DNA from: a virus
Direction: 5' to 3' (one strand)
DNA: 20,450 nt
Virus record (IMG/VR): IMGVR_UViG_3300046532_000954
Coordinates: 1 to 20,450 of that record
The notes beneath the pieces are model-generated. The model made no database searches. It saw only the letters and a list, made by a program, of their open reading frames with translations, and had not been told where the DNA came from. Positions within the stretch are counted from its first letter, which is position 1, and every line of letters starts with the position of its first letter. A program made the translations under genes and the position numbers. This document shows positions 4,658-17,944 of this stretch, piece by piece.

Positions 4658-6835
4658 ATGGTAGAAAATCCTAGTACAAATTTAAGATTGGTGGATCACG
4701 CTATAAGGAGTCCTTTGGTGGATCATGCTTTAAGGGATCCAACATCTAGTGTTGGGGCAACGTTCTTAGGGGATCAACAGCAGCTTATTGCTAACCCCAA
4801 AGGGTTGGATAATACTGCTAGGCTAGCTGAAGGGCAGATCAAATCTAATAACGCTAGAGCACAAGCGTTGACTGATGCATTGCCTAACAGCCCACTTGCT
4901 TCAATACTAACGGTGCTTAATGCTAGCCAGACGAATGATATTCGTGGTCAGTTAAATGACCTACGTGGGCTAGAGAAGAAAAGACTCAGTGATGAAAAGA
5001 AAGCTGCAGGTGAAGACGCTAGAATGACATCATTGATTAAAGATCTTAAGGACACGGGTAGAATTAAAGATGCTCAACGTGTTGCTGACCGTGATTACGA
5101 AGGTGATATACGCGCAACATTGAGAGACCCTAAGCTTAATCAAAAAATCATTGGGTTGCCATTATCAATACAGCAGAAGGCGGATTTTCTTAAAGACATC
5201 ATTGCAGCTGAAGAGGTGTTTGCTGGCGTTGGTGTGAACACAGTGGAAAATACCCCACAGATTAAAGCCTTACGCATAGTCGTAGAAGAGATGGCAGCCT
5301 TGATTCGTGGGGGTCGTGACATATCTAAAGGGGTATACAAGAAATCGATAAGGGAACTGGATGTTGCCATATCTAAAGCTAATGATTCAAAGTCTGCGCG
5401 ACAGAATCCAGATGCAGCTAAAACCACATCTCCAGCCCCTCTATCTCCTACTGGTCAGGTGACACTTGGCAAGCTAAGGGCTACGCAAAGTCCTAGGCCT
5501 AATCCTAAAGTTCCAGCTCAGTCATTCATGCAGAAATTAGTTGAGCCTGAAGGGAAGCCAACGTTTGCTGGCTTTCTATTAAATTCAGGGAATAGAGTAT
5601 TGACTGCTTTTGAAAAGGCTGGGCAAAGATTAGCTAAGGAGCTTCCAATAGGTGAATGGCTATATGAACAAACCAATGATGGCAGGGGTGTGCTCACTGA
5701 TAATAATACTGGCAAGAGAATAGTTGAAAGATCAGACGGGACTGTTGTTATTCAGGATCCAAGTAATGTTGAGCAGGTTAAAAAGGTTAAGACTCTTAAG
5801 GAGGCTGTTGATGAAGTAACCAAGAAGTCTACTTCAGGATCTTTTAGTGCAACTAAAAAGGAACTTAAAGATGTTAGATTGGATGACGCTGGGAGGAAAA
5901 GGCTTGCAGATACTCCTACTAGTTTTAACGTTCCAGATGGTGGCTTTACTCCCGGTGGGGCAGGGACTGACATTGGGGGAGTACCAGACGGTGGCGTAAG
6001 CTTAAGCATTAATCCCGACACCGGACTACCTGACCTTGACTTGCCAGAGCAAGGGGAAAGGGAGCCTGTAGATGATGGGTTGCGTCAGATAGGTGATCCG
6101 GCTACTGAAACAGCACAGATGCCTAGTGGAGCAGACTTCGCATTAGATGCATTAAAGAAACTTAGCAAGACTGAGTTTGGTCAGTGGGTGCAGTCTTTAC
6201 CTTCAAGATATAAGGCTTCATTAATATCTGAACTTGGCACATTAAAAGGTATCACTGCTGAAAAGGCAGCACCTATACTTAAGAAGATTAAAGCTTCCAC
6301 TGTCGGCAACAACGTATCTAGCAGTAGGGATAAGCAGCTTGACTTTATAAGGACTGTTGAGACTGGTGGGGCAAAAGATCCAATCAATGCCACTTCTTAT
6401 AAGCTAGATAAAAAGACAGGGAAAGAGATCAGAGATAAAAATGGGAAAAGAATTCCTCAAGCATATGGCCCGTATCAAATAATAGTATCAACGGCTAGGA
6501 ACTTACCTAGTGGTAAGACTAAATTTAAAGGCAAGTCAGATAGTTTTGTTATTAAGAGCCTGAAGTCAGAAGACAGTAGAAAGCTTGCAGGAGAACTGAT
6601 GGATGAGCTTACTGCTACGGCATCTAGGAATAAATACGTACAGAATTTTAGTGACAAGGACAAGGAGGTAGTCATAGCTGCCGCTTACAATAATAGAGGC
6701 TCTGGTTTCTTTTCAGGGATTATAGACAAGTACAAGCCTGCTTCTATAGATGACCTATTATCTAAGAACGTATTAGATAAACAAACTGTTAGGCAAATTA
6801 CAGAATACAGACGGCAACTTGTTGGAGATAATTAA
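4658..6835 (+). CDS. internal virion protein with C-terminal lytic transglycosylase-like domain
   Basis: 725 residues. The first ~500 are hydrophilic and helical, with Pro/Gly/Asp-rich linkers at about 425-475. The C-terminal domain (about 555-725) carries signs of an SLT/lysozyme-like fold: FIRTVETGG with candidate catalytic Glu568, AYGPYQI (602-608) in the place of the Gly-x-Met-Gln-Ile element, and AAAYNNRG (674-681) in the place of the Ala-Ala-Tyr-Asn-x-Gly element. Such domains in virion proteins cleave peptidoglycan locally so that ejected DNA can cross the wall. In T7 the domain is at the N-terminus of gp16; here it ends a gp15-sized protein. A GAT-like insert (TSYKLDKKTGKE) lies between the first two motifs. 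The Shine-Dalgarno site is weak (TAGGAA). The stop overlaps the next ATG. Confidence 0.8.
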   Translation: MVENPSTNLRLVDHAIRSPLVDHALRDPTSSVGATFLGDQQQLIANPKGLDNTARLAEGQIKSNNARAQALTDALPNSPLASILTVLNASQTNDIRGQLNDLRGLEKKRLSDEKKAAGEDARMTSLIKDLKDTGRIKDAQRVADRDYEGDIRATLRDPKLNQKIIGLPLSIQQKADFLKDIIAAEEVFAGVGVNTVENTPQIKALRIVVEEMAALIRGGRDISKGVYKKSIRELDVAISKANDSKSARQNPDAAKTTSPAPLSPTGQVTLGKLRATQSPRPNPKVPAQSFMQKLVEPEGKPTFAGFLLNSGNRVLTAFEKAGQRLAKELPIGEWLYEQTNDGRGVLTDNNTGKRIVERSDGTVVIQDPSNVEQVKKVKTLKEAVDEVTKKSTSGSFSATKKELKDVRLDDAGRKRLADTPTSFNVPDGGFTPGGAGTDIGGVPDGGVSLSINPDTGLPDLDLPEQGEREPVDDGLRQIGDPATETAQMPSGADFALDALKKLSKTEFGQWVQSLPSRYKASLISELGTLKGITAEKAAPILKKIKASTVGNNVSSSRDKQLDFIRTVETGGAKDPINATSYKLDKKTGKEIRDKNGKRIPQAYGPYQIIVSTARNLPSGKTKFKGKSDSFVIKSLKSEDSRKLAGELMDELTATASRNKYVQNFSDKDKEVVIAAAYNNRGSGFFSGIIDKYKPASIDDLLSKNVLDKQTVRQITEYRRQLVGDN

Positions 6836-9800
6836 TGGCTGAGTTTCAGTTTAGCAATGACGACATACAACGATTTAGTTCCCTAGGACTTGATGTTCAA
6901 GGGGCATTAGATTCTGGTTCAACTCCAGAAGATATATCATTAGCTGCAAAGCATATTGAGTATGAGGAACAAGCTGCTCTAGCACCAGTAGTAGCAGAGC
7001 AGTCACGTCCTGTCATACCAATTCCACAACAACCTTTGCAAGAACCTGCGGGTGATACCGACAGGCTTAGTCTAGAGGGCTATGGGGCAGAGGATTCCCT
7101 AAGCACAATAGCTGCTGCTGCTAACAATACTATATCAGCTGTATTCGGATTTGGTATTGAGAAGCTTGGAAACGCTATTGGGATGCCTGAAGTCAGCGCA
7201 TTAGGCACAAAGATTAAAGAGTTTGCAAATGAAGGGGAACGTATATCAAGAGAGAACATGTCTCCGCAGGGACAAGTACCTGCGTCACGTAGTTATACTA
7301 GAGATGCCCCTGAGAATCTATTTGGTGTTGGGCTAGGTGATTTTAACCTTGGCACCGTAGCAAATACTATATCAAGTGCAATCGGATCAAGTGTTCTCCC
7401 GCTAGCTGGAGGTAAGGGACTATCTGTTCTCGCAACTAAGTTAGGTGCTGGTGCTAAGACAGCTGGTGCATTCGGTATCAGTACAGCATCAGGTCTTACT
7501 GAAGGTTTAGCTACAGCTCAAGACGTATTCAATGACGTACAAAATACACCTGATGATGTAATTATTAACTCACCATTGTATGCACAGTTTGACAAAGTAA
7601 TATCACAACAGTTCCCAGAGTCTCAAGGCTCAGAGAAGGTTGCGTTTGTTCGTAGAGCTATTGCTAACCAAGCATCCTTTGAAGCTGGCTTCATAGCTGG
7701 CCCATTGATTGCTGCTACATCCCTACCTATAGGTGGATTGCTTGGTCAACTTGGGATAGGTGGCAAAGGTGGGGCTGAAGTATTCAGAAAAGGATTTGGC
7801 TCTACATTATTCAAGGGTGCAATGTTTGAAGGTGGACAAGAGTTTGGGCAGGAAGCATCACAACAGGTAATACAGAACTACGGTAACTTCTTGGCTGGTA
7901 AACCAGTGCAACCGTTGGCTGGCAGTTTAGAGGCTGGTGTTCAAGGTCTTGTAGGTGGTAGTGCTATAGGTTCAGTGGCAGCAACAGCACAGAATCAATC
8001 TTTGCCTGTAGATAATGTCCCAGTAGTAGACCCCCTTGAGGAAGTAATCGAATCGGTTGACTCTGTAGATCTTGATGGATCGGATCCAGATGTAGTTGGG
8101 ACAGAGGACTTAATCTCCTCACCAACAGTTAATCTTGACCCTGATCCCAAAGGAGATCCGCCACCACCAGCACCACCAGCAGCTGGAGCAAGAACAATTG
8201 TCAGAGATAAAGATGGGTTCTTCATTGACGGAGAAGGGTTGTCTGATGCTGAGGTTAATGAGTTAAAGGCTGACCTTAAGAGGATAAGAGTAAAGAACAC
8301 TGCCCCTGATGCAGCTCCACTGGTGAATGAATTTGACAATTCAAAACGTGATCCGAAAGGGGATCCACCTCCACCAGCAGCAGGTTCTGCAGAAGAGTTA
8401 TCTAGGGAGCTGACTGATGAAGAGATAGACGCTATCATTGATGATGAATCACTTGACGAGCATGTGTCTAGGAAGAGCGATAAGGCAGATAAGATTGGAC
8501 TAAAAGGAATACGCATAGATGATCCAAGATTAGATGGCGTGTTCTCACGTAAGAGTGTGGAAGCTGACGAGTTATTTCTTGCTGATGCTGTTCAGAAAAA
8601 TAATAAGGGAAATGATTCAGATGAGGTAGCTGAGAGGCCTGAAGCTGTACTTATGCTCGACAAATATAAAGATGGGCCTTCTCTGACGAAGTCTAAAGAC
8701 TTCACAGCCACACAATTGAGGGCTAAGGCTAAAGAACTTGGTATAAAAGTTAAGTCTAACGCTCCTAAGCATGTAGTAGCCAACAAGATTATAGCTCTTG
8801 GTCAAGAGCAGGCTAAGACTGCACCTAAAGTTGGGCTGAAGAAGGCACAGGCTGAGGCTAAACTTGAGACTTCTAAGAAAGCTTCTACTGTTAAGGGCAA
8901 GGCTGTAACTGAAGAAGAGGTTGATGCTTCTATTAGGTTAAACACTCCAGCTCTCGACATATCAATAGAGAAGAGACAGAAGTTAAAGACTGACATTGAA
9001 GCGTTACAAGCTAAGCTTAAGAAGAATGGCAAGCTTGATAATAAAGATCAAACTTCACTTGATGTTCTACTAGAGACACGTAAGGTTGTTGAGGGTAATG
9101 AGTTCGTTGGCTTTGCAGACAAAAAGAAATACCTAAGAGATCAGGCTAAGCAAAAGAAGAGGAAGATCTCTCGTTTGTTCGCTAGTAACTTTGGTATAGG
9201 TGAGCTGCTAGCTGACCCTGCTACTAGACAAGAAGCTATTGAAATGTTAGCTGCTGAGAACTTGAGCAACACGTTACCTAAGTCAACTGAAATTACAGAT
9301 GACACTAAAGTTACTAAGCTTCCAGCTGAAACATCTGAAGGATCTATTCAGGTTACTAAGAGTGAGGCTGTTGATAAACATGACAAGAAGATTAGGAATT
9401 TACAGAAGGCTATTGATAATAAGACTGCATCTATGCAGAGAGGGTTGGATACGTTTGGTAGGAAGGTGGATGCCAGAACTAAACTAGACCCAACCAATGC
9501 TAGGTTCTTAACACAGACTGAAGCCTCAGCTATGAAGCAGGCAGAGGAAGAAAAATCTATAGCTACACTTAAAGACTTTAGTAAGGCGCAAGGAGATAAG
9601 ATAGACAAAGAGGTGCAATCGTTTAGAGCGTTAGCTAAGAAAGAAGGGTTTGATGTCGATGACGTTATCCCTCAGATAGCAGAAGATGCCGATGAAACAG
9701 ATATCTCCTTTGCTAGAGAAGACAGGGCTAATATTAAACGTGACCTTACCAACAGGGTTAGAGGGTTAGAGAAAGATGGTCAAGTGATCGGCCCTGTTGG

Positions 9801-11118
9801 ACGTAAGATTGCAAGCGGTGAAACCATTGATGATGGTGGTGATTTTGATGACTTGGTTGCTGATGCCCTTAGCGTTACTGACCAAGAGCTTAGCGCATCA
9901 GAGCTACGTGAGATCAATGACCTTAAGAATGAAGCTGATGTAGAGGCTGAAAGGATAGAGAATGACCCAGCTATACTTGATGCACAGGCCAGAAGTAATC
10001 TAAGAGAGAGGGCTGACCGTCCTGAAGTTACCAGCTTTCCTGATGGGCCTAGACAGAGTGAACAGCGTAGACAGTTACAGCGTACATTCTATAGAAATGG
10101 TAAGATAGTTAAAGCTCCACCGTTGACACTTGAAGGATCAATCAAACCTGTCACTGCACAGAGAGTTCCGGTTAATACACCTAGGATTTCTCCACTGTCA
10201 GACAAACATAAGGACGCAGCAGGTCAGCGTGATAACTTAGGGAGAACTAAGACTGCCCTAAAGTTAACGGAAATAAAGTCATTGACTCAAGAGCGTGGTT
10301 TAATTGGAGAGTCAAGTAATATCGGCAGTGATGCGAACCCAACACTAGGCAGTATAAGTAATGAATCAGCAGGGGATGTAAGACTTGTTATGGTTTCAGA
10401 GGGCAACAGTAAATTCATTGAGGTTGTTGTCGATGATGGATCGTTTGAAGGTGAGTTCATAGGCGGGGTTGAACTACTACATGATGCGGTTGTCGATTCA
10501 TACTTTCTTCCAGATGCTAAGATTAAGTACAAGCTTGGTGGTGAACAGATAGCTGAAATCATTGGCAACATAACTGGCACTGCACTTGTTAGTGACATGC
10601 ATAAGAAGATGGGGGCTGACTACTTGCAAATTAATGAGCGTGTTAAACGTGGACTTTCAGCTGGCCAACGGGTTGGCTACGAGAAAGTTGAATCACTTAA
10701 CAAAACTATTAAAGAGTTTGAAGCCTTCCAGATGGACGCAGAGGAGAGAGCTAAGAACCCAACACCTACTCCAGAGCAAGCTAAGAAGAGTAGTGACAAG
10801 ATAAAAGAACTAAAGAAAGATAACGGTAAGGCTGAGCCTAAGATCACTATAGACCTAGGCTTTTCCCCAGACGTAACAGAAGAGAATGATTCATTCGTTG
10901 ATGAGATTAAAGAATCACAAGCCATGCTTGATGAGTTAGCTGAGAGTGAAGCATTCTTTGCTGAGCATCCAGAGCTAAAAGATTCTCCTCACATCAGCGA
11001 AGAAGAGTTGGCTAGTACAGCTCAATACAATTTTGATGGTACTTCTAATGCTGAGGCTCAGGGCAGGACTGATGAGACCACAGACGATGACTTTGAACAC
11101 TGTAAGGTGGACTTCTAA
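6835..11118 (+). CDS. giant ejection-type virion protein with SAP-like motif
   Basis: 1427 residues. The start overlaps the previous stop (TAATG) with GGAG upstream. Residues ~85-385 are Gly/Ala-rich with hydrophobic stretches and a FEGGQEFGQEASQQ piece, typical of very large phage virion or polyvalent proteins. Two Pro-rich repeats follow (DPKGDPPPP at 437 and 506). Residues 623-657 (FTATQLRAKAKELGIKV, then K..VANKIIAL) resemble a SAP/Rho-N-type helix-turn-helix that binds nucleic acid. The remainder is charged and coiled-coil-like, with an acidic C-terminus (ETTDDDFEHC). The most likely role is a protein packed in the particle and ejected with DNA. Together with the next gene it occupies the place of a T7 gp16-like protein. 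No enzymatic motif was seen. Confidence 0.7.
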   Translation: MAEFQFSNDDIQRFSSLGLDVQGALDSGSTPEDISLAAKHIEYEEQAALAPVVAEQSRPVIPIPQQPLQEPAGDTDRLSLEGYGAEDSLSTIAAAANNTISAVFGFGIEKLGNAIGMPEVSALGTKIKEFANEGERISRENMSPQGQVPASRSYTRDAPENLFGVGLGDFNLGTVANTISSAIGSSVLPLAGGKGLSVLATKLGAGAKTAGAFGISTASGLTEGLATAQDVFNDVQNTPDDVIINSPLYAQFDKVISQQFPESQGSEKVAFVRRAIANQASFEAGFIAGPLIAATSLPIGGLLGQLGIGGKGGAEVFRKGFGSTLFKGAMFEGGQEFGQEASQQVIQNYGNFLAGKPVQPLAGSLEAGVQGLVGGSAIGSVAATAQNQSLPVDNVPVVDPLEEVIESVDSVDLDGSDPDVVGTEDLISSPTVNLDPDPKGDPPPPAPPAAGARTIVRDKDGFFIDGEGLSDAEVNELKADLKRIRVKNTAPDAAPLVNEFDNSKRDPKGDPPPPAAGSAEELSRELTDEEIDAIIDDESLDEHVSRKSDKADKIGLKGIRIDDPRLDGVFSRKSVEADELFLADAVQKNNKGNDSDEVAERPEAVLMLDKYKDGPSLTKSKDFTATQLRAKAKELGIKVKSNAPKHVVANKIIALGQEQAKTAPKVGLKKAQAEAKLETSKKASTVKGKAVTEEEVDASIRLNTPALDISIEKRQKLKTDIEALQAKLKKNGKLDNKDQTSLDVLLETRKVVEGNEFVGFADKKKYLRDQAKQKKRKISRLFASNFGIGELLADPATRQEAIEMLAAENLSNTLPKSTEITDDTKVTKLPAETSEGSIQVTKSEAVDKHDKKIRNLQKAIDNKTASMQRGLDTFGRKVDARTKLDPTNARFLTQTEASAMKQAEEEKSIATLKDFSKAQGDKIDKEVQSFRALAKKEGFDVDDVIPQIAEDADETDISFAREDRANIKRDLTNRVRGLEKDGQVIGPVGRKIASGETIDDGGDFDDLVADALSVTDQELSASELREINDLKNEADVEAERIENDPAILDAQARSNLRERADRPEVTSFPDGPRQSEQRRQLQRTFYRNGKIVKAPPLTLEGSIKPVTAQRVPVNTPRISPLSDKHKDAAGQRDNLGRTKTALKLTEIKSLTQERGLIGESSNIGSDANPTLGSISNESAGDVRLVMVSEGNSKFIEVVVDDGSFEGEFIGGVELLHDAVVDSYFLPDAKIKYKLGGEQIAEIIGNITGTALVSDMHKKMGADYLQINERVKRGLSAGQRVGYEKVESLNKTIKEFEAFQMDAEERAKNPTPTPEQAKKSSDKIKELKKDNGKAEPKITIDLGFSPDVTEENDSFVDEIKESQAMLDELAESEAFFAEHPELKDSPHISEEELASTAQYNFDGTSNAEAQGRTDETTDDDFEHCKVDF
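8143..8385 (+). repeat. two-copy proline-rich coding repeat
   Basis: Inside the 1427-residue gene, codons for DPKGDPPPPA occur at 8143-8172 and again at 8350-8379, 207 bases (69 codons) apart. Both are followed by Ala/Gly codons, and the copies differ at synonymous positions. They flank a ~50-residue charged helical unit and look like rigid linkers on both sides of a small module. Confidence 0.6.
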
Positions 11119-14100
11119 ATGGGTGCTTGCGATAAATACAATAAAAAGAATGCTGATGCTGATGTCAGGGCTGTTAAGAAATCATTTCTTAATAACAATA
11201 AAGCTTTCGAGGATAAAGAAAAGCTAGAACGTGGAAAGTTCTGGGAGAACGCACACAAACAAATCTTTGACAACACTGGCAAGCTTAAGAGGCAGATGAG
11301 AAAACAGCTGGGTGCTAGAGGTGAGATATTAATTAGAAACCTTGAGCTGTCAGCTGGTGGTTCAGCTATTGGGGACGTGCAATTTCAGAACGCTTTCGCT
11401 AAGGTATTTTCTGGGCTAAAGAAGAATGAGTACGAATATCTGAATGAGATCATTCAGGCCAGACGTAACATAGCACTTGAAACTAACAGAGTTGTTGTGG
11501 CTAGACAGTTCCTTAATGACAATGCTATTGGTACAGTGTTTGACTTAAGCAACCAAGACCATGTAAGCGTACTCAACGCTAAGTATGGTGAGGCAAAGAT
11601 AAAGAAGTTTCTTGGTAAACAATTCGTTACCATACAGAAGAAGAATGCCGACACTAACAACAGCGAAATAATATTACAAGCCCACATATCAGCAAATGTT
11701 GCTACTAAGTTTGCTGACATACAGGTGCGTAAAGTCCTAGCATCAGCAGACATACTTAACCCTGATGGACTGTCAGCTGCCCAGTATCAAAAGTTCCTAG
11801 ACCATGCTAAGAAATTTGATGGTACAAATTTTGACAGGCTCAATGGGAAGGCCGACAATTACTTTGCAGTATTCAAGAGTCAGCTGGGACACATGCGTAG
11901 AGCTGGCCTGATAGATGAGAAAACATTTAATCATATGCGTAAGGTAGGTGACTACTCACCACGTAGGTACATACAATTCTTTGACCCAGACATTACCTTC
12001 AACAACCTTGAGCCTATCACTACTGGTAGTACCCAAGCATTGATGATGGACTCAGCAGTATTGATGCGTGATTACATAGTAAGATTACATGAAAGGATAG
12101 CAAAGAATGAAGCTAACGTTAGTCTCTATAACTTTGCTAAAGATAATCCCGGCAATGGTATCGCTGAAGTAGTTGGTGTTGATGATATACCAAGGGCTAA
12201 TACAATTAGAAACAGCGCATTCATTGATGGTAATAGAGTCGCAGTAGTCATGCCACTTGAGCTTGGCAAGGAGTGGGGCGGTATTGATAGCGGGATGGAT
12301 AAAGAACTTGCAGACATGTTATCTAAATATTCTGGATCTAAATTCGTTAGGGTGCTGGCAACTGGTGCTAACCCTGAGTTTGCATTAACTAACTTTCCGC
12401 GTGATATAATGTTCTCATGGTTCAGGACACGTGAGTTCAGTGATGCAGCACCAATAGCATTAGGGCAGATGGTAAAACAATTTGCTTCCACGTTCAAAGA
12501 TGTATGGCATACAGGGGCAACACCTATTGGTAAAGCTAAAGACTTCCTTGAAGATGGGGGCATGATGGAGTTCATGACCACACAGGGTGCTCTTGAAAAG
12601 AACTTTAGGTCGCAGAGCGTTGTCATGGATCCAAGACTCAGAGCAATTGAAAAAGCTCTGTCCTTCTTAGGGCAGAAGACTGAGCTATGGGTTAGGTTAG
12701 CACTGAGGCAGCAGGCACTTGACAATGGGAAGAGTCGCAAGGATGCAACATGGATTGCACGTAGCTACCTAGACTTTTCACAAGGTGGTAAGGCAGTCAA
12801 GGTTGCAGACAAGGCACTACCATATCTTAATGCAGGGTTGCAGGCTACACGTGGGATGTTTGGTTCACTGTTACTTGGTGACACATCTGGGGCTAAAGAG
12901 TTTGACAGAAAGAAACTAGCCAAGAACAAGGCAGCTGCTATGTTTAAATTCTTTCAGTTCGGATTGCTGTTCTCATCAGTAATGATAAACAATATCCTTC
13001 ATCACCCTGAAGCATGGGATAAAACTGACGATCAGGATAAGACTAAGAACTTGTTACTGTATACAGGTCTGTCACATAAAGCTGCCAATGGTTCCGATGT
13101 ATATTCATACGTTAAGATTCCACTGGATCAGGGACAGTCAGGTGTGGGTAGCTTCTTCGGTTCAATCATAACTAAATTTCTTAAGGAGACCATTGGCACT
13201 GAAGGTGATACTGTATTCCACAAGATTGCTGGCACACGCCAAGAGGTATGGAACAATGGTATGGCAAACCTCGTACCATTCTCTAACTTTATTCCTCCTA
13301 CATTGAAGGCTGCAATTGCAACACAGAATATAGATACATACATGTGGAGGGAGATTTCACACAAGGGTGAGCTGAATGATAACACGTTAGAGCAGACACC
13401 TTTTACCCACCCATTCTTTGTCATGTCAGCTGAGAAGTTAAACGACATGTTCGGTGTTGTTACTGATAGCAAACCTTTCTCTCCTGAAAGGATGCGTGTC
13501 ATGGCTGACTCGCTGATCCCTTCATCTAACTCAATGATTAAAGTATTAGGTGGCCTTGGTAGGATAGGCACAGACTTAATCAACGGTGACCCACAAGAGC
13601 AAGCTATTAAAGCTGAGATAGAACAATCATGGAGACAGGCCATTAAGTCTATCCCCGGTGCTGATAGAATCTTTGAGTACACTAATGATGAGAGCATTGA
13701 GGTTCGTGCTCAAGCTGATAAGGCTAAGGTTAAGAGTAGGACTACGGAAATTCGTGTGAAAACATTAAAGAATAAGTGGATGAATCATCTCAATGGATTG
13801 GATGATAAAAATACTAAAGCGCAAGAGAAGGTAGTTAGAACTGCTGCTACTAAGATTAGAGACATGGAAGCTAAGGGAGACATCTCTAGGGACAGCATGA
13901 ATCGACACATCGAATCTGTTAATAGGTCATGGGCTATCAAGAAACGTTTTGGTAAGATCAAAAACCCTAGGCTGTGGAGAAATGTATCATTTGCCCCAAG
14001 TGGTGAGCCTAGGGCTTCTATGATATTTGCAGCTATCAAGGCTGGCAATGAGAAACAGAAACAAGAACTGCTTGAACAGTTTAGACGGTTCAAGTTCATC

Positions 14101-14160
14101 GGTAACAAGAAGACTGTTAAAGAATTAACTAAACTACTGAGGGAAGATGCAAGGAATTAA
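11119..14160 (+). CDS. large ejection/polyvalent-type protein with LPD38-like region
   Basis: 1013 residues. The ATG directly follows the previous TAA, and AAGGTGG lies 9 bases upstream. The N-terminal half is helical and charged, with GDYSPRRYIQFF at about 274-285. Around residues 409-432 is FVRVLATGANPEFALTNF, and around 545-585 comes RSYLDFSQGG followed by LPYLNAGLQATRGMFG. The 'LDFS-x-x-G ... NA-x-x-Q' pattern after an alpha-helical block is characteristic of the large polyvalent-protein-associated domain LPD38, seen in T7 gp16-like ejection proteins and in polyvalent proteins of phages and plasmids. A mildly hydrophobic segment (KFFQFGLLFSSVMINNIL) lies near 614-631. The last ~200 residues are basic and helical. 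It is probably ejected with DNA. The domain assignment is from memory of the pattern. Confidence 0.75.
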   Translation: MGACDKYNKKNADADVRAVKKSFLNNNKAFEDKEKLERGKFWENAHKQIFDNTGKLKRQMRKQLGARGEILIRNLELSAGGSAIGDVQFQNAFAKVFSGLKKNEYEYLNEIIQARRNIALETNRVVVARQFLNDNAIGTVFDLSNQDHVSVLNAKYGEAKIKKFLGKQFVTIQKKNADTNNSEIILQAHISANVATKFADIQVRKVLASADILNPDGLSAAQYQKFLDHAKKFDGTNFDRLNGKADNYFAVFKSQLGHMRRAGLIDEKTFNHMRKVGDYSPRRYIQFFDPDITFNNLEPITTGSTQALMMDSAVLMRDYIVRLHERIAKNEANVSLYNFAKDNPGNGIAEVVGVDDIPRANTIRNSAFIDGNRVAVVMPLELGKEWGGIDSGMDKELADMLSKYSGSKFVRVLATGANPEFALTNFPRDIMFSWFRTREFSDAAPIALGQMVKQFASTFKDVWHTGATPIGKAKDFLEDGGMMEFMTTQGALEKNFRSQSVVMDPRLRAIEKALSFLGQKTELWVRLALRQQALDNGKSRKDATWIARSYLDFSQGGKAVKVADKALPYLNAGLQATRGMFGSLLLGDTSGAKEFDRKKLAKNKAAAMFKFFQFGLLFSSVMINNILHHPEAWDKTDDQDKTKNLLLYTGLSHKAANGSDVYSYVKIPLDQGQSGVGSFFGSIITKFLKETIGTEGDTVFHKIAGTRQEVWNNGMANLVPFSNFIPPTLKAAIATQNIDTYMWREISHKGELNDNTLEQTPFTHPFFVMSAEKLNDMFGVVTDSKPFSPERMRVMADSLIPSSNSMIKVLGGLGRIGTDLINGDPQEQAIKAEIEQSWRQAIKSIPGADRIFEYTNDESIEVRAQADKAKVKSRTTEIRVKTLKNKWMNHLNGLDDKNTKAQEKVVRTAATKIRDMEAKGDISRDSMNRHIESVNRSWAIKKRFGKIKNPRLWRNVSFAPSGEPRASMIFAAIKAGNEKQKQELLEQFRRFKFIGNKKTVKELTKLLREDARN

Positions 14161-15025
14161 TGATTACGTAACAAGTGATGGTGTAAGGGTGCTACGCATT
14201 CATTACACTGCAGATCCTGACAAGGATATTACAACTCCGAATGGTAAGCAGTGGATGGCCAAGTCACTGGTAGGCTATCCCGGTGGTGTGATAGGTGCTA
14301 AGTGGCGAAGAGAAATGGAGATTGATTTCGATGCACAGGGTGGACAGCTAGTGTTCCCTGACATGTTGAAGCATAGGCCACGCATTGAGATCCCTGTATG
14401 GAAATCAATACCTGAAGACTGGAAGTTGTATGGTGGATTCGATTATGCTGGGCGTGGTATCACAGCGTTTGTGGTGATAGCGCATGACACTAAGGTTGAT
14501 GACTACTATGCTGTCTTTGAATTTTACAGGAAGAAGTCAGGGTACATCACCACATCAGAGGCTATCCTAGATTGTAAATACTTTGATAGGTTGGAATGGA
14601 TAGTAGCAGATCCAAGTATGTGGACAGCTACTCAAGAGAAGGGTGACGGAGGTGACCTAGTTAGTCCAGCATCTTTATTTGCTGAGCAAGGTGTTCACTT
14701 TATCAAGGGCACTAGGGGAGGAGACGTACAGTTTGCTGAGATGGTGAATGAACAGTATTGGGGTGGGTTCAACGGGAAGGATAAGGATTGGCAACCAAGG
14801 TATAGAATTACAAAGTCATGTCCCAATCACTATAAGGAGATGAGTCAGTGGAGGTATAACGAGTGGAGTAACAGCACTGGGCAGAGTAGAAACGTAAAGG
14901 AAACTATGATTGACAAGAATAACCATAGCATTGATGCAGTTAAGTATTTATTCAAGATGCTTTCATCTAATTGGATGGCTGATAAGGTGGATAGCTTTGA
15001 TACCTCACGCCACATAGTATACTAG
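14147..15025 (+). CDS. terL: terminase large subunit, C-terminal nuclease half (separate ORF)
   Basis: 292 residues. The protein starts at what would be the interdomain linker of a normal TerL: MQGIN, then VLRIHYTADPDKD, YPGG and WRREMEIDFDA.GGQLVFP, a conserved run in TerL of this type. The RNase H-like nuclease motifs follow: YGGFDYAG (Asp99), VADPSMW (Asp155) and NNHSIDAVKYLF (Asp263), the three expected metal-binding aspartates. There is no Walker A or B. The start is fixed: an in-frame TGA lies at 14138-14140, two codons upstream, with GAGGG just before the ATG. It overlaps the end of the preceding gene by 14 bases. The missing ATPase half is encoded downstream at 16585-17265. The predicted role is cleavage of concatemeric DNA during packaging, presumably with the ATPase half as partner. 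Confidence 0.85.
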   Translation: MQGINDYVTSDGVRVLRIHYTADPDKDITTPNGKQWMAKSLVGYPGGVIGAKWRREMEIDFDAQGGQLVFPDMLKHRPRIEIPVWKSIPEDWKLYGGFDYAGRGITAFVVIAHDTKVDDYYAVFEFYRKKSGYITTSEAILDCKYFDRLEWIVADPSMWTATQEKGDGGDLVSPASLFAEQGVHFIKGTRGGDVQFAEMVNEQYWGGFNGKDKDWQPRYRITKSCPNHYKEMSQWRYNEWSNSTGQSRNVKETMIDKNNHSIDAVKYLFKMLSSNWMADKVDSFDTSRHIVY

Positions 15026-15033
15026 GAGAGCTA

Positions 15034-15201
15034 ATGGCAACAAAAGCGGAGACAAGGAGATCGAACGAGATTGCAACTGATTCAGTCCTTACCAAAGCTA
15101 ATAAGTCTGAGCCTTCTGCACCTAAGAAGGCCACTTTCAATGTCATGAAATCACTAGAGCTAAGGAAGAGTAAGCCTTTCAGAGCACACGGAAGCCCTTA
15201 A
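15034..15201 (+). CDS. small basic hypothetical protein
   Basis: 55 residues (ATG 15034, TAA 15199-15201), with TAGGAGAG immediately upstream at a good distance and only 8 bases after the terminase nuclease half. It is rich in Lys, Ser, Ala and Arg (MATKAETRRSNEIA at the start, ELRKSKPFRAHGSP at the end), with no hydrophobic segment. Its good ribosome site and tight spacing make it a likely real gene despite its length. The function is unknown; in an ordinary gene order it could be the gene that follows terL. Confidence 0.6.
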   Translation: MATKAETRRSNEIATDSVLTKANKSEPSAPKKATFNVMKSLELRKSKPFRAHGSP

Positions 15202-15290
15202 GGTGAGCCAAGGCTGGCGCGGGATGTAGACGCGCCCTCCTGTAAGCCAAGTACAGCAAGGGTATTAGACACTAACATAAGGAGATAGTT
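15202..15290 (+). other. short intergenic gap with GC-rich hairpin
   Basis: This is the only gap of note in the + strand part. GGCGCG (15216-15221) can pair with CGCGCC (15231-15236) around a 9-base loop, a GC-rich stem in an otherwise AT-rich window. No T-run follows, so a standard intrinsic terminator is not supported. It could be a weak terminator, an mRNA processing structure or a scar. The gap ends with AAGGAG, the ribosome site of the next gene. Confidence 0.4.
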
Positions 15291-15485
15291 ATGCCGGGAG
15301 AGTTATACACTGAGGAAGAACTGGGGGATGATTACAATAAGCTGATGGATAATCCTATTTTGACAGCGGATTTAACTGACGCATTAAATGGTAAGGAAGG
15401 ACGTAAGCATGCAGACGACTATGTATGTAACGTAGTTGAGTCTTCGATGCTTACGTTGAATAAACATAATGGAATTGACGGGTAA
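15291..15485 (+). CDS. small acidic hypothetical protein
   Basis: 64 residues with AAGGAG 7-12 bases before the ATG. It is acidic and helical (YTEEELGDDYNKLMD, then LTADLTDALNG), with no membrane segment and no recognised domain. The end overlaps the next gene by 17 bases in another frame. It lies between the two terminase halves, ahead of the small-subunit gene, so a packaging accessory role is possible but unsupported by motif. Confidence 0.65.
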   Translation: MPGELYTEEELGDDYNKLMDNPILTADLTDALNGKEGRKHADDYVCNVVESSMLTLNKHNGIDG

Positions 15486-16038
15486 GATAAAGCATGTAGG
15501 TGCTGGCATTGCGTTGAAACATGAGGGCAAGTTCAGGCTGTGTCATCTAACGATGGCATGCCTGTTTCTTGGCACTGATGACCATAGTAATGCATACTGT
15601 GTAGTAGGCACCAAGATGGAGATGAAGGATGGCATTGAGTACCACCTCTTTGATGAGGCAATAGGTAGGATGTCACCTGAGTTTATGTCAGAAGTAAAAG
15701 AGATGTTGCATCAGGATATGGTTGAGCGTTTGATAGTTGTGTCAAATGATGAGGACTTACGTAGCCGTATCAAGAAAGAACTCGGTGTACGTGTGATGTT
15801 TGAGGATGAGAAGCGCAGGAATAATGCCTCCGTTATCATGAGAGAATGGTTCTCAAGGAACAAGCCGGGGAGTGACAAGGCTCTACTAAGGCTATGGGGT
15901 GGATGTAAAGAAGCGGTCAAGTCTAACTACCCACCAGTGCGTGATTGCATGGTACGACTATTAGACTTCTATGATAAACGCAGCAGAAAAAAGGCAGCTA
16001 GACCAGCAGGTATTGGTGGTCGAGCTGGATATGGATGA
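15469..16038 (+). CDS. hypothetical protein upstream of terminase small subunit
   Basis: 189 residues. The ATG at 15469 lies inside the previous gene and lacks a clear Shine-Dalgarno site, so coupling is likely. The N-terminal part has alternating hydrophobic and charged strands (KIKHVGAGIALKHEGKFRLC), followed by helices (SPEFMSEVKEMLHQ, EDLRSRIKKELGV). The C-terminus is Arg/Lys/Gly-rich (KRSRKKAARPAGIGG) and could bind nucleic acid. It overlaps the terS start by 4 bases (ATGA). The family is unrecognised; co-transcription with terS/terL is certain from spacing, but a packaging role is only an inference. Confidence 0.75.
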   Translation: MELTGKIKHVGAGIALKHEGKFRLCHLTMACLFLGTDDHSNAYCVVGTKMEMKDGIEYHLFDEAIGRMSPEFMSEVKEMLHQDMVERLIVVSNDEDLRSRIKKELGVRVMFEDEKRRNNASVIMREWFSRNKPGSDKALLRLWGGCKEAVKSNYPPVRDCMVRLLDFYDKRSRKKAARPAGIGGRAGYG

Positions 16039-16691
16039 TGGGGTCTAAACTATTATCAGGTGTACATAAGAACAAAGAGTTGTTGAAGAACCCTGAAGCT
16101 AAGAAGCTTAAGGCGGTAGTCGATACTGGATACAAGACAGATAAGCAGGACATTTTTATTGAGCAGCTTATCATGAACCCAACTAAGAATAAGATTGGGT
16201 TGGCTATCAAGTCAGGCTATGCCATGAAGTCAGCTGATAAGGTAGTTCAGAGGCTGATGAAAGATGATAAGTTCTTGGCTAGAGTAGAAGCTAGGAAGTT
16301 TGAACTACAGGATAGGCTGAATGTATCACTAGACAGGGTGGCTGAGGAGTATGCACGTATTGCATTCCTCAACCCAGCTGACTATGTGAAGTACAACAAG
16401 GACGGGGATATAGAATCCAAAGCATCAGACATCGTTGACCTCAAGCCAGTCATTACTATTAACAAAGGTAAGTATGGCAAGGGCGTTGACCTAACATTCT
16501 ACAGTAAGATGGATGCTTTGAAATCATTAAGGGACATGTTCGGATATGACAAACCAGCTAAACACGCTCACCTCATTGCGGGGAATGGACAAGGACTTAC
16601 TAACGAAGGGCTTGAGTCGGCTATCTTCGGACTCATTACAGGAACTCCACAAGCTCCTGTTACTAAAGGATTGGATAGCCCACCCAAATAA
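16035..16691 (+). CDS. terS: terminase small subunit
   Basis: 218 residues, ATG overlapping the previous stop (ATGA). Residues 39-85 (DIFIEQLIMNPT.NKIGLAIKSGY, then a helix ending in a KDDKFLARVEAR stretch) match the N-terminal helix-turn-helix of Terminase_2-type small subunits, normally 'N-x-T-x-A-A-x-x-A-G-Y'. Residues 95-120 (LNVSLDRVAEEYARIAFLNPADY) and 157-171 (SKMDALKSLRDMFGY) match the second conserved part, 'v-l-x-E-l-A-r-i-A-f-x-d-p' and 'K-x-x-A-L-x-x-L-G'. TerS recognises the phage DNA and regulates the TerL ATPase and nuclease. The C-terminal third overlaps the start of the ATPase half by 107 bases. Confidence 0.85.
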   Translation: MMGSKLLSGVHKNKELLKNPEAKKLKAVVDTGYKTDKQDIFIEQLIMNPTKNKIGLAIKSGYAMKSADKVVQRLMKDDKFLARVEARKFELQDRLNVSLDRVAEEYARIAFLNPADYVKYNKDGDIESKASDIVDLKPVITINKGKYGKGVDLTFYSKMDALKSLRDMFGYDKPAKHAHLIAGNGQGLTNEGLESAIFGLITGTPQAPVTKGLDSPPK

Positions 16692-17265
16692 TTTCATCTT
16701 CTCTGGCTATGTCATGACAAAGGATGAGCATGACACTGACTCACCGATGAAACCTTTCCCTGATAAGCCTTACTTGCGTAAGATCATAGAAGTTATCCAT
16801 GAATCGGATCGACTGTTCATACCTAAGAGCAGACAGATCATGATGTCATGGGTAGCTGTGCTCTATTCGTTATGGCTATGCCTATTCCACCCACATCAGG
16901 CTGTGTTCATACAGTCAAAGAAGGAGGAGGATGCTGCAGCCCTAGTGTTTGATAAGAAGATGGAGAATGCTAGGATGTCATTCGTATACCACCATCTACC
17001 TGATTGGTTAAAGGAGATGGTACCAGTTGATACTAGTTATGCTAAGATGAGATTCGGGAATGGAAGTATTGCTCATGGAATACCGGAAGGAGCACACATC
17101 ATTCGCTCACGTACTGCTAGCTTAGTGGTATCAGATGAGTGCGCCTTCCAGCCTGAGTTCGAGGAAGCCTATACTGCTGCCGTACCTATGGCAAAGAAGA
17201 TAGTAGGCTTAAGTTCTGCTTGCGGTGGGACATTCTTCGGGGATATATGCTGCGAGGTGATATAA
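16585..17265 (+). CDS. terL: terminase large subunit, N-terminal ATPase half (separate ORF)
   Basis: 226 residues from ATG 16585 (an in-frame ATG at 16546 would add 13). It has the N-terminal TerL signature GYVMTKDEHD...PMKPFPDKPYLR, then the deviant P-loop region IPKSRQIMMSW (residues 79-89), FIQSKKEEDA, Walker B with catalytic acid LVVSDECAF (Asp184, Glu185) and the coupling motif SSACGG (210-215). It ends at FFGDICCEVI with TAA 17263-17265, exactly where the linker to the nuclease domain should begin, and no nuclease motifs follow. The nuclease half is at 14147-15025. The two halves together are about 518 residues, a normal TerL length. Predicted to power DNA translocation into the capsid. 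It ends 2 bases from the stop of the convergent gene. Confidence 0.85.
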   Translation: MDKDLLTKGLSRLSSDSLQELHKLLLLKDWIAHPNNFIFSGYVMTKDEHDTDSPMKPFPDKPYLRKIIEVIHESDRLFIPKSRQIMMSWVAVLYSLWLCLFHPHQAVFIQSKKEEDAAALVFDKKMENARMSFVYHHLPDWLKEMVPVDTSYAKMRFGNGSIAHGIPEGAHIIRSRTASLVVSDECAFQPEFEEAYTAAVPMAKKIVGLSSACGGTFFGDICCEVI

Positions 17266-17267
17266 TC

Positions 17268-17531
17268 TCATTGCTTTCTTCTATCAAACCTAGCACTACC
17301 AACAGCATAGCTCAACCATAGTGTAGCACGATACTCTATACTCCTAGGTGACCTGCGTTCTTTATTGGTAAGCCTACGTTCTATAGGCTTGATTGATTCT
17401 GGAGGAGAAAGCATAGACAAACTTATTAGTTGGTCAAGCTTATCCTCTAACCTAGATACCCAGAAGGGTTCGTACAGTGTACGCTCCCCTGATATTCTTT
17501 CTTTACTTGAAGATACTGTATACTCCTTCAT
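17268..17531 (-). CDS. small hypothetical protein after endolysin
   Basis: 87 residues. The ATG (17529-17531) has GGAGAC about 8 bases upstream and follows the endolysin stop by 14 bases on the same strand, which argues for a real gene. It is rich in Ser, Arg, Glu and Leu; the middle (SRLEDKLDQLISLSML) could form a short coiled coil and the end is basic (RFDRRKQ). No domain was recognised. Its stop faces the stop of the terminase ATPase half with 2 bases between. It could be a remnant or a true accessory gene. Confidence 0.5.
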   Translation of the reverse strand: MKEYTVSSSKERISGERTLYEPFWVSRLEDKLDQLISLSMLSPPESIKPIERRLTNKERRSPRSIEYRATLWLSYAVGSARFDRRKQ

Positions 17532-17545
17532 TAGACTGTCTCCAT

Positions 17546-17944
17546 TTAGTCTACCAACTCAAAGTGAGGAAGGTCATCAAAGCCATTGTCATTCACTAGC
17601 CAATCACCATCCCAGTCACCACCCCATCTAAGTTTAACATCCATGCTTGCTGCAACGCCCATCACTAGGCCAGCAAATAAAGAGAAGCGTTCCCTGTCAT
17701 TCCAATCAATAGGGTAGGGTGCCACGTCTACAGCTAGCGATGGGTTAGTGTTGTGCTTACTATGTGGATGCTTTATGCGTGACTTCCCTGTATGAAACAT
17801 ATCATCCTGTCTGGTACGACTACGGTGTCCTTCTAGTACGGTGCAGTCACAAACTTTCAGCACCTTCTTTAATATTTTTTGTATTCTTTTATCACATGTC
17901 TCTAGTTTAGACTTAGACTTCTCACTAAATTTGTTTACGTCCAC
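17546..17944 (-). CDS. M15-type peptidase endolysin (L-Ala-D-Glu / D-Ala-D-Ala type)
   Basis: 132 residues from a GTG start (complement of 17942-17944) with GGAGAAG 5 bases upstream. The zinc-peptidase pattern of M15 phage endolysins is clear: LEGHRSRTRQ (38-46), FHTGKS (50-55), SKHNTNPSLAVDVAPYPIDW (62-81) with His64 and Asp73 as metal ligands, then RWGGDWD (107-112) and DLPHFEL (124-130) with His127. It should cut peptide bonds of peptidoglycan. No signal peptide is seen, so it depends on a holin such as the one at 661-915, encoded on the other strand 17 kb away. It overlaps the previous gene by 10 bases. Confidence 0.9.
   Translation of the reverse strand: MDVNKFSEKSKSKLETCDKRIQKILKKVLKVCDCTVLEGHRSRTRQDDMFHTGKSRIKHPHSKHNTNPSLAVDVAPYPIDWNDRERFSLFAGLVMGVAASMDVKLRWGGDWDGDWLVNDNGFDDLPHFELVD

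Follow-up and report, generated by a model that had tools for sequence, protein, structure and literature searches.

The large terminase subunit (TerL) of the virus in IMG/VR record IMGVR_UViG_3300046532_000954 is encoded by two closed open reading frames (ORFs) that lie in reversed order. The window, the whole stretch of DNA analyzed here, is this record of 20,450 bases, a partial genome. The nuclease half (NUC; 14147..15025, + strand, 292 amino acids) carries the TerL lid, linker, and RNase H-like nuclease, and the ATPase half (ATP; 16546..17265, + strand, 239 amino acids, TAA stop) carries the TerL additional-strand catalytic-glutamate (ASCE) ATPase core without its last strand and lid. The small subunit gene, terS, sits between them, next to ATP. 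PHROGs labels both ORFs 'terminase large subunit', on complementary parts. An initial annotation had proposed the split and the reversal, and both are confirmed by the ORF calls, by PHROGs, and by 31 distinct loci. We put a probability of roughly 0.85 on the reading that the two polypeptides rebuild the TerL motor non-covalently, with the lid on the nuclease chain, and that the split came first and the swap later, once. From the data below we infer that both proteins are produced, that they assemble, and by which route the genes were rearranged.

IMG/VR was scanned with each half and then with alignments of each half. The scan gave 144 loci with both halves, and the removal of 53 repeat fetches or identical copies left 91 distinct loci. 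These consist of 31 permuted loci (window included), 53 linear-split loci with two ORFs in the normal order, and seven fused loci with one continuous ORF.

Composition of the two proteins and the site of the break

The start of ATP was placed at 16546, inside terS, where an ATG is kept in nearly all permuted loci. The initial annotation had begun this half at 16585, but the Met at that position is replaced by Val or Leu in several relatives. ATP is closed by the TAA at 17263-17265. NUC is closed as well: an in-frame TGA (14138-14140) stands two codons before its own ATG, and GAGGGA lies just upstream of that start. ATP is an ASCE core that contains the Walker B DE (D197/E198) and the C-motif SS (S223/S224), as in TerL. 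K94, S95, R96, D197, and E198 are invariant in 58 sequences, and S223 and S224 are each conserved in at least 90% of them. NUC contains the Asp triad of the TerL RNase H-like nuclease (D99, D155, and D263), the first of which lies about 98 residues after the start. D99 and D263 are invariant in the same 58 sequences, and D155 is at least 90% conserved. The motif set had been described as complete in sum, and this holds for all of these residues, but not for the P-loop. The Walker A motif is deviant, PKSRQIMMSW (16822-16851), and has no canonical GK. The GK position of T4 SRQLGKT is MM, RM, or ML in this family, the window having SRQIMMS. Lys94, directly N-terminal of SRQ, is invariant, an arrangement that we take to recall the lambda-type motif. 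Deviant Walker A forms are known within TerL, and the missing GK is thus no bar to membership.

Structural models support the assignment of both halves. The AlphaFold2 model of ATP has a predicted local distance difference test score (pLDDT) of 89.7 and matches T4 gp17 in Foldseek with an E value of 2.8e-11 over 217 aligned columns. The model of NUC (pLDDT 82.5) consists of a strand pair and two helices followed by an RNase H core. It matches D6E TerL with an E value of 1.6e-9 across the lid and the nuclease; with domain movement the alignment reaches as many as 284 columns, and alternatively it takes in about 215 at 3.4-3.7 Å. The family thus has the lid subdomain of TerL, but it is carried on the nuclease polypeptide, where W36, Y44, W53, E56, and E58 of the lid part are conserved. 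The ATP and NUC family profiles also match solved TerLs by sequence.

The chain is broken at the same place throughout the split loci. The ATP ORF ends 14-18 residues past motif III in the 28 complete permuted loci and 12-25 residues past it in the 52 complete linear-split loci; the fused ORFs run on for 327-347 residues. When the concatenated family was aligned as a profile with T4 gp17 and D6E TerL, the break fell at about residue 300 of T4 and residue 180-190 of D6E. The linker of D6E TerL spans residues 230-241 and is preceded by lid residues 213-224 (PMC5727402). The last core strand, the lid, and the linker are therefore all on NUC, and the AlphaFold2 models of the two proteins agree that the lid and the preceding strand belong to NUC. 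These data localize the break to the inside of the ATPase domain, just after motif III and upstream of the interdomain linker, the point at which it had first been placed.

Recurrence, descent, and relation to known terminases

A search of related phages for the same order had been suggested at the outset, and it yielded one supported clade. The gene order NUC, o189 (a conserved gene), terS, ATP is found in all 31 permuted loci, and most of those that extend far enough are flanked by a 1013-amino acid gene on the upstream side and a convergent lysis/replication block on the downstream side. The loci come from many metagenomes, with identities down to about 50-55%. In the tree of ATP and NUC combined, the 26 permuted rows form one clade with a Shimodaira-Hasegawa-like approximate likelihood ratio test (SH-aLRT) value of 100, and the value is 99 for this clade in both the ATP-alone and the NUC-alone trees. 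The ATP and NUC trees have correlated distances, with r = 0.92 among the permuted loci and 0.86 across all loci, and NUC was therefore not recruited from an unrelated phage, although vertical descent alone would also produce this correlation.

In the linear-split loci ATP lies upstream of NUC, and the spacing ranges from overlapping start and stop codons to 2 kb. Linear and fused loci have the order (terS)-ATP-NUC-portal wherever terS or the portal gene was found. The 53 related loci with two ORFs in the normal order show that the split is more widespread than the swap. One linear-split locus (L162) belongs to a contig that was assigned to a Candidatus Omnitrophota metagenome-assembled genome, which points weakly to a host of the wider family. 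Among isolated phages, the search for relatives of NUC gave one distant match only, in a phage with a fused TerL.

ATP and NUC each occur once in the permuted records of 39.5, 35.3, and 52.5 kb, and no additional TerL was detected there. A second intact terL, which the initial annotation named as grounds for rejecting the split, was not found in the records searched. The 52.5 kb record also holds terS, the portal gene, which is about 19 kb beyond ATP, and the gene for the major head protein. The apparent end repeat of this record was rejected as proof of completeness: it is 126/130 identical and lies inside a tail-fibre-type gene with repeated matches.

Several observations weigh against the two-protein reading and its proposed history. 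T4, D6E, and MW202795 form long branches as outgroups, and the tree was left without an external root. Two fused members, L156 and L160, fall near linear ones. The fused-to-split polarity thus rests on parsimony, because the outgroups are too distant and these two fused members are close to linear loci. The ends of the longest related records show no exact repeats, which leaves some chance of a TerL beyond them. The searches found no cultured phage in the permuted clade, whose ATP and NUC proteins are known from genes alone.

The initial annotation derived the layout from two tandem copies of a terS-terL unit, each of which had lost the end that the other kept. Such an event is not needed, since linear two-gene relatives exist. 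It is simpler to assume that a nuclease gene that already stood apart was moved, because the split occurs without the swap in related phages, although neither route is proven. A terS-ATP-NUC duplication followed by loss is a possible origin that has left no visible trace here. A search for recombination-junction repeats at the two ends gave only short, chance-like matches.

Two-gene TerLs in linear order have already been published, whereas the swapped order and this break site are without a precedent that we could find: no description of either was found in the literature searched, from which most subscription papers and preprints fell outside. Arthrobacter phages of cluster AY encode the TerL ATPase and nuclease in two overlapping ORFs next to terS (PMC11920828, PMC12820723). 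Cluster AY phages (BillyTP, PP978841; BlueShadow) resemble the window in having a two-gene TerL beside terS, but their order is terS-ATP-NUC-portal, whereas in the window NUC is upstream of terS-ATP and the two halves are not consecutive. The cluster AY nuclease protein has 198 amino acids with the likely first catalytic Asp near residue 16, and the ATPase protein contains an apparent lid. The cluster AY break thus appears to come after the lid, at the linker, as read from sequences whose alignments to D6E and T4 are not significant; in the window family it comes after motif III. Profiles of this family gave no significant match to cluster AY genes 2 and 3. T4 gp17 and D6E TerL share with the window the two folds, the motifs in sum, and the position next to terS, but each is a single polypeptide, and T4 has the canonical P-loop in place of the upstream Lys94 variant. 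The fused members (L064, L072, L075-L077, L156, and L160) are homologous over both halves, and the portal gene was found downstream in four. The linear-split members (for example L020-L027, L071, and L143) share the split point and the two ORFs with the window, but ATP precedes NUC and the portal gene is downstream where found. TerL genes interrupted by introns or inteins occur in Bastillevirinae, Campylobacter phage IBB_35, and Mic1 (PMC11878797, PMC3322345, PMC7156551). Their coding is discontinuous as in the window, but linear, and the parts are joined at the RNA or protein level.

Retained function and alternative explanations

The dN/dS ratios (nonsynonymous to synonymous substitution rates) of permuted pairs are 0.02-0.07 in both halves, approximate values because synonymous sites are near saturation in several pairs. 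These data show that purifying selection acts on both halves. Every complete permuted locus starts NUC with ATG or GTG at a fixed position, whereas ATP may be terminated by TAA, TGA, or TAG. In two linear loci, L020 and L021, the NUC ATG overlaps the ATP stop (ATGTTAg and ATGTTAa). This arrangement of starts and stops is consistent with ordinary translational coupling and not with splicing or frameshifting. Rfam searches gave no intron or other RNA match in 13600-17700 at E values up to 1, nor in the window at the gathering level. These searches and the sequence at both ends revealed no intron or intein at the break, which speaks against an interrupted TerL gene of that kind.

A single metagenomic record could be chimeric or misassembled, and the true gene would then join ATP directly to NUC. 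We give this practically no chance. The same order with the same neighbors, from the 1013-amino acid gene through NUC, o189, terS, and ATP to the convergent block, is present in 31 distinct, diverged loci; an assembly error cannot recur with diverged sequence, and the independent contigs already refute it. The swapped order is genuine. Because the genome is partial, the halves might also be remnants in decay, the functional TerL being encoded elsewhere or provided in trans. This is extremely improbable given the low dN/dS, the catalytic residues conserved across the 58 sequences, and the single pair of TerL genes in the long related records.

It is very improbable that the halves are joined after transcription, by back-splicing of a permuted intron-exon gene, by trans-splicing group I or II introns, or by a split intein. 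Formally, a permuted intron-exon gene would have this layout, and there are introns and inteins in the TerL genes of other phages, as cited above. However, Rfam was negative, coding sequence precedes NUC without a gap and extends beyond its start codon, and the start codons are conserved whereas the identity of the stop is free. There is no room for a split intein, as ATP ends CEVI-stop and NUC begins MQGI, and the overlap in L020 and L021 leaves no space for an intron. Two functional proteins might also form no shared protomer, in which case ATP, with an unknown partner, would translocate DNA and NUC would merely cut it as a separate enzyme. Separate genes with separate translational coupling could indeed yield unequal amounts of the two. 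We consider this improbable because TerL ATPases depend on a lid and a last core strand that NUC carries and ATP lacks, and because the lid residues of NUC are conserved. The agreement of the half-trees points the same way, although vertical inheritance alone would give it.

Neighboring genes and the proposed motor

The small subunit gene terS (16035..16691, +) matches Pfam PF03592 Terminase_2 with an E value of 1.5e-14. It overlaps ATP by 146 nt (16546-16691) in a different frame, as in most of the permuted clade. Between NUC and terS lies o189 (15469..16038, +), a 189-amino acid gene of no known family that is kept there in 30/30 other permuted loci and was not found, by iterated profile, in the linear and fused loci searched. 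It gave no Pfam match above the cut-off, and in the PDB it best matches a short segment of a designed protein. A small ORF upstream of it, o64 (15291..15485, +), occurs only in the closest relatives. The roughly 265 bases 3' of NUC (15026-15290) contain no listed ORF and gave no Rfam match. Downstream, the endolysin gene (17546..17944, -) marks the end of the late operon and is the first family-assigned gene of the convergent block.

The 1013-amino acid gene (11119..14160, +) lies directly upstream of NUC, overlaps its start by 14 nt at the stop, and belongs to no family. It has relatives in Desulfofustis and Cellulophaga phages; the Desulfofustis phage has an ordinary terS-terL that the ATP and NUC profiles do not match. 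Together with a 1427-amino acid gene, also family-less, it fills 6835-14160. These two very large genes are only 31% (1427 amino acids) and 55% (1013 amino acids) identical to those of a related locus, L002, whereas NUC and the downstream genes are 84-100% identical, which suggests recombination just upstream of NUC. The 725-amino acid protein encoded at 4658-6835 has a C-terminal part (RTVETGG...AYGPYQI) that resembles a virion lysozyme/transglycosylase, with no PHROGs or Pfam match. The ORFs at 1653-2372 and 2185-2901 share 188 nt, which are read on one strand in two different frames.

In the proposed motor, ATP would be translated together with terS, whose gene it overlaps, and NUC with the gene upstream. 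ATP would supply the nucleotide-binding ASCE core with its Walker A variant, Walker B, and C-motif, and NUC the last core strand, the lid (transmission) subdomain, the linker, and the nuclease. The two most likely bind non-covalently to form one TerL protomer. Judging from the anatomy, the first strand of NUC would complete the core sheet of ATP and the lid would close over the nucleotide. By analogy with known motors, five protomers would form a ring on the portal. The split would have arisen in a wider lineage that kept terS-ATP-NUC-portal, and a single later rearrangement would have placed the nuclease gene upstream of terS-ATP.

Annotation pipelines can easily overlook a TerL gene that encodes the nuclease alone and precedes terS, and general profiles score ATP and NUC weakly or not at all. 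Packaging models describe a covalent core-lid-nuclease chain, and they differ on the origin of the force, either a lid movement that is coupled to ATP hydrolysis or an attraction of the ATPase and nuclease domains for each other (PMC5727402). Force might here be transmitted across a non-covalent interface, the lid-nuclease chain might be replaced or controlled between the translocation and cutting steps, and o189, which accompanies the swapped order, might act as an assembly factor; we regard this extension as speculative and rather unlikely. A natural lineage with a separate core and lid-nuclease would allow each to be titrated or mutated alone.
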